Source: Trametopsis cervina (lineage: Eukaryota; Basidiomycota; Agaricomycetes; Polyporales; Irpicaceae). From it: 64,000 nt of DNA. Positions 54,130-56,733 of the stretch are shown piece after piece. The notes under the pieces are model-generated. The model was not told the DNA's origin, did not search any database, and saw only the letters and a program-made list of their open reading frames with translations. The DNA lies in assembly GCA_022385755.1 (NCBI GenBank), contig MU278354.1, forward strand, positions 62,001-126,000, written 5' to 3'. The position numbers and the translations under genes are program-made. Position 1 is the first letter of the stretch. Each line of letters starts with the position of its first letter.

Positions 54130-55010
54130 ATGGATAGCTGGCGAGTAGCTATACTAGGTGACGGTGGCGTAGGAAAGACAGCATTGGCTGTTCAGGTAAG
54201 TATTCGCTGGCTTCTTTTCTCTCGTTATCGTCTCGGTCCTCACCTGCCCGTCACATCCAACAGTTTACTCTTTGCTGCTTCGTCGGTGAGTACATCGCAA
54301 CCCTCCCTTACACACGTCTCAGATGCTGATTTCACTTAACCCCCTCTATAGAGGTTCGTATAGCGTTGCCTACGAGCTCGGGCAGATCCTAATCCACGCA
54401 TCTGAATAGACATATGACCCAACAATAGAAGATTGCTATCGAAAGCAACTTGTTGTCGACAACCGTATGTGTTACGTCGAGGTCATCGATACTGCCGGCC
54501 AAGGTGTGTCCACTTCCTACGCCCTTTGCATATTGGTAGTCATGCTCACTGCCATCGCAGAGGAATATGCCACATTGCGAGATCAATGGGTCCGGTAAGT
54601 GGGAACATGACTTGCCGGCATCCGACCGCATCTCACATGTTCCGTGCAGAGAAGGCCAGGGCTTTATTCTGGTCTACTCCATTGCGTCGCGGGCGACCTT
54701 TGATCGACTGGAGATATTCAGACAGGCCATGCTCAAGGTGAAGCGTCAGGCGCCTGTTTTCATGCTTGTCGGCAATAAGTGCGACAAGTATCATGAGCGA
54801 GAAGTATCCAAAGAGGAGGGGGCACAGCTGGCGCGCAGCTTTGGCTGCGACTTCCTCGAGACCTCCGCCAAAACATCCATGAACGTTGAGAGATTATTTA
54901 TCTCGCTAGTCAGGATGCTACGACAAACCACACAAACTCAGCTCCGCGCAGCCGGTCTTCCAGCTCCGCCAGAGAAGGAGAAGAAGAGAATCAAGTGTAT
55001 TATCATGTAG
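54130..55010 (+). CDS. Ras-family small GTPase
   Basis: Membrane-anchored signalling GTPase. Exons 54130-54195, 54264-54285, 54352-54353 (2 nt), 54410-54503, 54561-54594 and 54650-55010 give 192 aa. G1 GDGGVGKTA, effector [13 protein letters not shown]3 [15 protein letters not shown]4 NKCD, G5 ETSAK and a C-terminal CAAX box CIIM after a short basic run (KEKKR) are all present. The CAAX ending in M favours farnesylation. Switch II differs from classic Ras ([14 protein letters not shown] instead of the usual SAMREQYMR). The start at 54130 gives the standard short N-terminus. The 2-nt exon supplies the last two bases of the Glu codon before TYDPT. The 5' leader is strongly CT-rich. Confidence 0.92.
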
Positions 55011-55693: not shown

Positions 55694-56733
55694 ATGCCCC
55701 CGCCCAATCGCACCTTCCACTGCAGCGTGCCAGACTTCTCTGTCCGGTCGATTCCCGACGGCGACATCTTTAACGTCAAGCGCGAATGCCTCATCACAGG
55801 CAGCGAAATATTCCGTAAGTTCACGGTCCAGCTACTAGTGGCCCTCAGGCTCTGTTTTTCCCAGGTCTGCGACAATCACTAACTTCATATTGAATTCAAT
55901 CCGTGTGTGTGCCGCGTTGCCACCCGCCATCTGTGTTTTGCAGGAGACATGTTCGCGTGCTGCGATGCTGGGTTCTGCGTCGTCGGTACCCTGGACGAGG
56001 ACGGCAGGATGCTCGAGCTCGACGAGAGCACGCCCGCGCTCGACGCGCTCTTCCACCTCCTGCACGCCACGCCCGAGTGGTTCGTCGTCCCCGAGAACAC
56101 GGAGCAGCCGGACTTTACGCGAGTATGGCAGGACGTCATCCCCGAGCGCGTCATCCCATGTCCGCTCCTTCCGTCGCTCTTCGTCCTCGCGGACAAGTAC
56201 GCGCTGTCGCCGGAGATTGTGGGCGTCCTCAAGTCGCACCTCCTCGCGTACGCGTCCGTGTTTCCGCTGCAGGTGTACGGGACGGCGTCCGTGCGCGGCT
56301 TCGCGGACATCGCGGCGGAGGCAAGCGCGTATCTTATCCACCCGCCGCTGGGCTCGTACGCCGCGGACCAGATCAGGGTCATTCCGACCGCCGAGGCGTA
56401 TCATCAGCTTGTTGTATTGCACGATTTCCGCGTGAGGGCGCTGGCGGACGTGTTGCGGAAGGAGGAGATCTTCCCGCACGGATATGGGGCGTGCAGCCGA
56501 CACTCTCCGCGCACGAGGGCCCTGTGGGAGGAGAAGAAGCAGACTATCGTCGGGCATATCGAGGCGGGTGAGGGGATTGTGCTGCGTACCGTTCCTAGGC
56601 TCCGGGCTAACCAATTTCACCAGCGACCGATGTTGCAGCGTTGATGGAACCGCTAATAGATGAGTTCTCGTATTGTGATGTTTGCAGGAGGGCCTGCAAA
56701 GCGGCGGTTGCCATGTTAGCGGTCAGTTGTTAG
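55694..56733 (+). CDS. BTB/POZ-domain protein
   Basis: Exons 55694-55814, 55944-56567 and 56624-56733 give 284 aa. The N-terminal half fits a BTB fold as found in many basidiomycete proteins: a start resembling DGDIFNVKRECLITGSEIFRDMF, then LELDESTPALDALFHLLH. It is followed by LPSLFVLADKYALSPEIVGVLKSHL, the usual helical extension. A possible zinc-binding CxxC is near the end (CDVCRRAC). The target is unknown; such proteins may act as adaptors for cullin-3 ligases or in transcription. The first intron (129 nt) is longer than the local norm. Third-position GC is high compared with neighbours. Confidence 0.82.

Follow-up and report, generated by a model that had tools for sequence, protein, structure and literature searches.

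Does a Ras gene of Trametopsis cervina, a wood-decaying polypore in the Irpicaceae, contain an exon of only two nucleotides? The question is raised by a gene on the forward strand at positions 54130-55010 of the window, as we denote the whole 64,000-nucleotide stretch of DNA that was analysed, within a genome of 29.4 Mb. Two exons of this gene are so placed that their direct junction runs into a stop codon, and an earlier note, made from the letters alone, had proposed that the dinucleotide AG, situated between an acceptor and a donor site within the 124 intervening nucleotides, is an exon in its own right. In the present analysis, this turned out to be the best reading of the locus, being backed by a deposited protein (P0001) and by the comparison of homologues: the AG at 54352-54353 is very probably a constitutive exon of the Ras gene, flanked by introns 2 and 3 that would be intron-defined and removed successively.

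Gene structure and splice models

In the best model, the gene consists of six exons and five introns (Table 1). The spliced product of 192 amino acids is intact and contains the characteristic Ras motifs as well as the C-terminal CaaX box, the prenylation motif with which it ends being KCIIM. The Pfam profile of the Ras family (PF00071) matches residues 6-164 with 172.2 bits, against a curated cut-off of 21.6. Moreover, the product is 100% identical, over all 192 residues, to P0001, 'ras protein [Trametopsis cervina]', so the Glu residue to which the AG contributes is already present in a database. Just 3' of the gene, a 253-codon open frame (55883-56644, plus strand) has no Pfam match at an E value of 0.001. 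Elsewhere in the genome, two Ras-type paralogues, L013 and L026 (contig C3, at about 1.326 and 1.320 Mb), read FVGEYDPTIE and FVSEYDPTIE, respectively; in each, an intron seems to follow PTIE, and neither has the pair of introns found in the gene in the window.

Table 1. Exons and introns of the Ras gene in the best model, and the competing intron (window positions; slashes mark splice borders)
Feature	Positions	Strand	Details
Ras exon 1	54130..54195	+	within the product identical to P0001
Intron 1	54196..54263	+	68 nt, GTAAGT...CAG
Ras exon 2	54264..54285	+	22 nt encoding FTLCCFV + G, phase-1 end
Intron 2	54286..54351	+	66 nt, GTGAGT...CTATAG; CTGAT with A 22 nt from intron end
Predicted 2-nt exon AG	54352..54353	+	completes GAG = Glu30; Glu30 present in P0001
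Intron 3	54354..54409	+	56 nt, GTTCGT...GAATAG; CTAAT with A 17 nt from intron end
Ras exon 4	54410..54503	+	TYDPTIED...DTAGQ, starts in phase 0
Intron 4	54504..54560	+	57 nt, GTGTGT...CAG
Ras exon 5	54561..54594	+	splice model
Intron 5	54595..54649	+	55 nt, GTAAGT...CAG
Ras exon 6 to stop	54650..55010	+	ends KCIIM
Competing intron	54282..54409	+	128 nt, TTC/GTCGGT...TAG/ACA; deletes Val29-Glu30, gives F-TYDPTIED

The sequence agrees base for base with what had been described: exon 2 ends with TTC GTC G at 54285 and is followed by GTGAGT, the acceptor-AG-donor array CTATAG/AG/GTTCGT occupies 54346-54359, and the next exon starts with ACA TAT GAC at 54410, directly after GAATAG. The reading frames likewise bear out the original argument, in that a direct join of 54285 to 54410 reads FVDI-stop (Val-Asp-Ile-stop), and insertion of the AG restores the conserved Ras order through Glu into TYDPTIED. 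These features of the sequence and the frames, like the identity with the deposited protein, are direct observations; the use of the AG as an exon in T. cervina RNA is the predicted part. The two resulting introns were said to be of usual size, and this holds within the gene, the other three introns of which are 68, 57 and 55 nt long. With the AG, the predicted mRNA junction reads GTCGAGACATATG, and without it, GTCGACATATG or TTCACATATG.

To see how far the frames constrain the choice, splice models were enumerated with GT/GC-AG introns only, a fixed start of exon 2, at most one internal exon and a minimum intron length of 40 nt. Twenty-five models are free of stop codons, and only that with the 2-nt exon yields the uninterrupted Ras order. 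Among the others is one that had been overlooked in the earlier note, an in-frame GT-AG intron from the donor at 54282 to the acceptor at 54409 (last row of Table 1). When the donor at 54286 is used, an mRNA that skips the AG meets a stop codon no more than three codons on; inclusion of the AG is therefore needed for the Ras protein to be made. As a separate observation, the sequence TATAGAG at 54347-54353 offers two AG acceptors two bases apart, the second of which drops the AG and leads to the stop.

Splice signals

At the sequence level, the AG has a 3' splice site before it and a 5' splice site after it, both flanking introns have GT-AG ends, and each contains a CTRAY branch motif, with the A at 22 and 17 nt, respectively, from the intron end; the donor hexamer that follows the AG is not an enriched one. 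The chance of encountering such an array was estimated in 124-nt windows made to begin with GTGAGT and to end in TAG, each intron being at least 44 nt long (200,000 genomic and 100,000 shuffled windows), by criteria that were chosen after the site had been seen. Under this proviso, AG/A[AG]/GT occurs in 1.9% of the genomic windows and 0.65% of the shuffles, falling to 0.8% and 0.38% when YAG is required and to 0.22% and 0.06% when a G at donor position +5 is required as well; with the further demand of CTRAY 7-35 nt before each acceptor, 7 of the 200,000 genomic and 1 of the 100,000 shuffled windows remain.

The donors differ in strength, that of intron 2 being stronger than that of intron 3. 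In 264 kb of the genome, the enriched donors are GTAAGT, GTGAGT, GTACGT and GTGCGT. GTTCGT, the donor of intron 3, was found at intron-like places in the same sample 10 times out of 169, against a baseline of 4.4% (p = 0.21), 4 times out of 169 under each of two open-frame filters (p = 0.64 and 0.32), and 3 times out of 168 in a separate count with a baseline of 1.3%. GTGTGT, with which intron 4 of this gene begins, likewise shows no clear enrichment. Given that GTTCGT is one base away from the enriched GTACGT and GTGCGT, it appears to be a tolerable, though not strong, donor. At position +4, C is taken in the sampled 264 kb about as readily as A. GTCGGT, the donor at 54282, is not enriched (7/130; 2/130 in each filtered count; 0/130 in the separate count). 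An intron finder based on codon scores was set aside; it gave 1/169 for GTTCGT and 0/130 for GTCGGT, and known good donors were low too. When the 124-nt stretch was used as a single query against the genome, it matched only itself, so there is no second genomic match that would signal an introner.

Comparison of homologues

Three protein searches, from which the best 120 of 1,431, 448 and 402 hits were taken, gave 214 distinct homologues, of which 155 contain FVETYDPT at the site and 49 read F-TYD, that is, lack exactly Val-Glu. The two forms are distributed unevenly by the origin of the protein. F-TYD is found in 49 of the 89 listed proteins that come from genome annotation and in none of the 125 others, although the former fraction is not a rate since one of the searches (that with 448 hits) was aimed at the FTYD form. 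Conversely, FVETYD is present in 32 of the 89 and in 123 of the 125, the remaining two non-annotation homologues having YVGEYD and FVQTYD. The search that was not aimed at this form (best 120 of 1,431) shows the same bias, with F-TYD in 5 of 35 annotation proteins versus 0 of 85 others (Fisher p = 0.0017). The 125 non-annotation proteins are mostly full-length uninterrupted open reading frames, with the longest contigs of about 0.9-8 kb, and include Ras1p of Schizophyllum commune, known from UniRef only, and one EukProt entry, neither of which has a listed contig; given that introns interrupt the gene in genomic DNA, we read these proteins as transcript-derived. According to its description, the protein collection is clustered at 90% identity, so that isoforms could be hidden; nonetheless, 99%-identical Suillus proteins with FTYD and FVETYD are listed separately.

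In eight hand-picked pairs of species from the same genus, the gap in the FTYD protein coincides exactly with the VE of the other species; in the pair Suillus brevipes and S. placidus, 192 of the 193 aligned residues are equal. The 49 F-TYD proteins carry 45 organism names, with Corticiales, Hysterangiales and Sistotremastrales among the orders represented, along with Agaricales, Boletales, Russulales, Polyporales, Thelephorales, Atheliales, Gloeophyllales and Hymenochaetales. Among the deposited records without Val-Glu are the Ras proteins of Heterobasidion irregulare (P0032), Suillus brevipes (P0121) and Amanita thiersii (P0131).

Six further proteins with odd annotation models fit the three proposed splice borders when read back as codons. 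In Pyrrhoderma (Hymenochaetales), FVE-VR-TYD fits AG/GTNCG, and in an Auriculariales fungus, FVE-VC-TYD fits AG/GTNTG, the insert in both cases following directly after Glu. In Epithele, FVA-LTTPE-TYD fits CTNACNACNCC(A)G/AG, and in Hericium, CVILE-TYD fits CT(A)G/AG, both with Glu just before TYD. The donor of exon 2 is apparently read through in Marasmius, where FV-GKN fits G/GTAAG, and in Mycena, where FV-GELP fits G/GTGAG (P0196, P0212). For another odd protein, P0033 (FVGTYD), no simple read-through fits. These back-readings are consistent with the proposed DNA, short of proof.

A gene finder restricted to GT-AG introns would arrive at just the F-TYD form, taking the GT within the Val codon for the donor and the AG ahead of ACN-TAY for the acceptor; if the relatives had an ordinary phase-1 intron before AG-ACN, there would be nothing difficult in modelling the gene correctly. 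Taken together, the homologues suggest one conserved arrangement across Agaricomycetes, with a 2-nt exon that would be old and common to many mushrooms, a conservation that we deduce from proteins by reading annotation errors. They also suggest that public gene catalogues are often wrong at this Ras site. Irpex rosettiformis, of the same family as T. cervina, may stand outside the shared arrangement: its protein P0080 and the non-annotation protein P0022 read YVGEYD and carry YVGEYDPTIEDF at the site, which may mean that the microexon site was altered, rebuilt or lost in one close lineage.

When the DNA of relatives was sought in genome contigs, the best 80 of at least 409 matches were all from Asgard-type archaea, judging by title. 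Among viral contigs, two contain the TYDPTIED pattern, both within a 638-aa open reading frame that by eye is not Ras, and no protein relative was detected there.

Alternative explanations and the order of splicing

A single 122-nt intron at 54286-54407 with GT-AT ends, such that the AG at 54408-54409 opens the next exon and the central AG/GT is there by chance, produces the same mRNA as the model with the 2-nt exon, as the earlier note had recognised and as we could confirm, and it accounts equally for the failure of gene finders that follow canonical rules. However, it calls for an AT 3' splice site although a TAG sits right there, its length is about twice that of introns 1, 4 and 5 (55-68 nt), and it offers no account of the central acceptor-AG-donor array or of the two branch motifs (found together in 7 of 200,000 windows by the criteria set after the fact). 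The F-TYD proteins argue against it too, along with the border-fitting models, in two of which, from two other orders, AG/GTN[CT]G fits directly after Glu, and in two of which YAG/AG fits directly before TYD. We hold such an intron to be very unlikely.

Nor does it seem at all probable that the form without Val-Glu, derived from the 54282-54409 intron, is a real or alternative Ras product, even though this intron is in frame, has GT-AG ends and corresponds to 49 deposited proteins. Against it stand its absence from the 125 listed non-annotation homologues, the non-enriched GTCGGT donor located only 4 nt ahead of GTGAGT, and the loss of two residues of switch I. We judge this intron to be an annotation artefact in the relatives; the deposited Ras records without Val and Glu in switch I are probably mistakes of annotation by which comparative studies could be led astray. 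An error of sequencing or assembly, or else a pseudogene, in which one substitution near 54407 masks a normal phase-1 acceptor, would give the simplest gene of all, with a single intron ending AG/AGACATATG. Yet the remaining gene is intact, with 192 codons and the motifs present, many separately sequenced genomes imply the same anomaly, and the central AG/GT and the branch motifs would have to be a coincidence; this possibility we consider extremely unlikely.

The explanation that we favour, the 2-nt exon between two introns, implies a stepwise process. Introns 2 and 3 would each be recognised by intron definition and excised one after the other. The footprint of U1 snRNP spans positions -3 to +6 of a donor, here 54351-54359, so U1 bound to AG/GTTCGT would intrude on the AG of the 3' splice site just before it, making simultaneous occupancy unlikely. 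Whichever intron is excised first, the two nucleotides would end up at the border of an exon of normal size, which would make exon recognition unnecessary and leave the other intron an ordinary one. Because the 2-nt exon appears to be shared and a single GT-AT intron is disfavoured, we infer that excision must proceed in two steps. Conceivably, the exon goes back to the common ancestor of Agaricomycetes and was retained because it makes Ras expression hinge on ordered, stepwise splicing, the stop that follows skipping when splicing fails serving as a built-in control of Ras dose, but this we regard as an unlikely, speculative extension.

Relation to known systems

Single-nucleotide exons verified by RNA are reported for the plant genes APC11 and VPS55 (PMC4674806, PMC8831610), and plant exons of this size are described as absent from reference annotations (PMC8831610); for APC11, the authors favour intron definition with successive intron removal (PMC4674806). 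Like these exons, the Ras exon is shorter than 3 nt, essential for the frame, apparently conserved throughout a major lineage and left out of annotations. It is unlike them in being 2 nt rather than 1 nt long, fungal rather than from a plant, and read here from sequence instead of RNA, and it is further set apart by the stop that skipping brings within three codons. The 1-nt plant exons are the nearest kin of the Ras exon. For the sago palm, an annotation gives 2 bp as the 'shortest exon', and the same annotation contains a 5-bp intron (PMC8760474). This exon is of the same length as that in Ras, but it is a lone, unverified figure from an annotation, and the plant gene concerned is uncharacterised. 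In the open-licence literature searched by phrase, where absence is weak evidence, that statistic was the only published 2-nt exon found.

Fungal microexons are on record from Phanerochaete, of the same order as T. cervina, and from Trichoderma, a member of Ascomycota. The Phanerochaete P450 genes resemble the Ras gene in having tiny exons between short introns (45-55 bp), although the shortest reported there is 6 bp rather than 2 nt (PMC1184071). The abstract on Trichoderma Xlr2 states that functional microexons were previously undescribed in filamentous fungi, with three predicted fungal genes and a function in S. pombe brought up in the text; inclusion of the Xlr2 microexon depends on glucose, whereas the Ras exon is known from sequence (PMC11121469). 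In two other papers (PMC3990503 and PMC8022950), microexons come up as a read-mapping option.

Two other arrangements involve closely apposed splice sites. In stwintrons, adjacent fungal introns are excised in consecutive reactions, but an internal intron splits a splice element of the external one and no exon is left between them (PMC5639578); the Ras site does not conform, as both introns have complete, separate signals and the AG stays in the predicted product. Zero-nucleotide recursive sites, AG/GU, consist of an adjacent acceptor and donor that are used successively in very long introns (PMC13149111). The successive use would be alike, but such recursion leaves no bases and the Ras site leaves two; use of TATAGAG/GT at the Ras site in this fashion would give FVDI-stop.

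Implications

The new part of these observations is the comparative one, namely, the annotation-specific loss of Val-Glu among the listed homologues, which suggests that annotation is the reason why deposited Ras proteins bearing 45 organism names are short of two switch I residues. If the proposed structure is correct, gene finders that bar exons shorter than 3 nt are wrong in a central signalling gene, and the exon is the shortest fungal one found described within the literature searched. It would also be a natural and apparently ancient substrate, in organisms that have short introns and are amenable to genetics, for studying how spliceosomes cope with an exon that falls short of a single U1 footprint.
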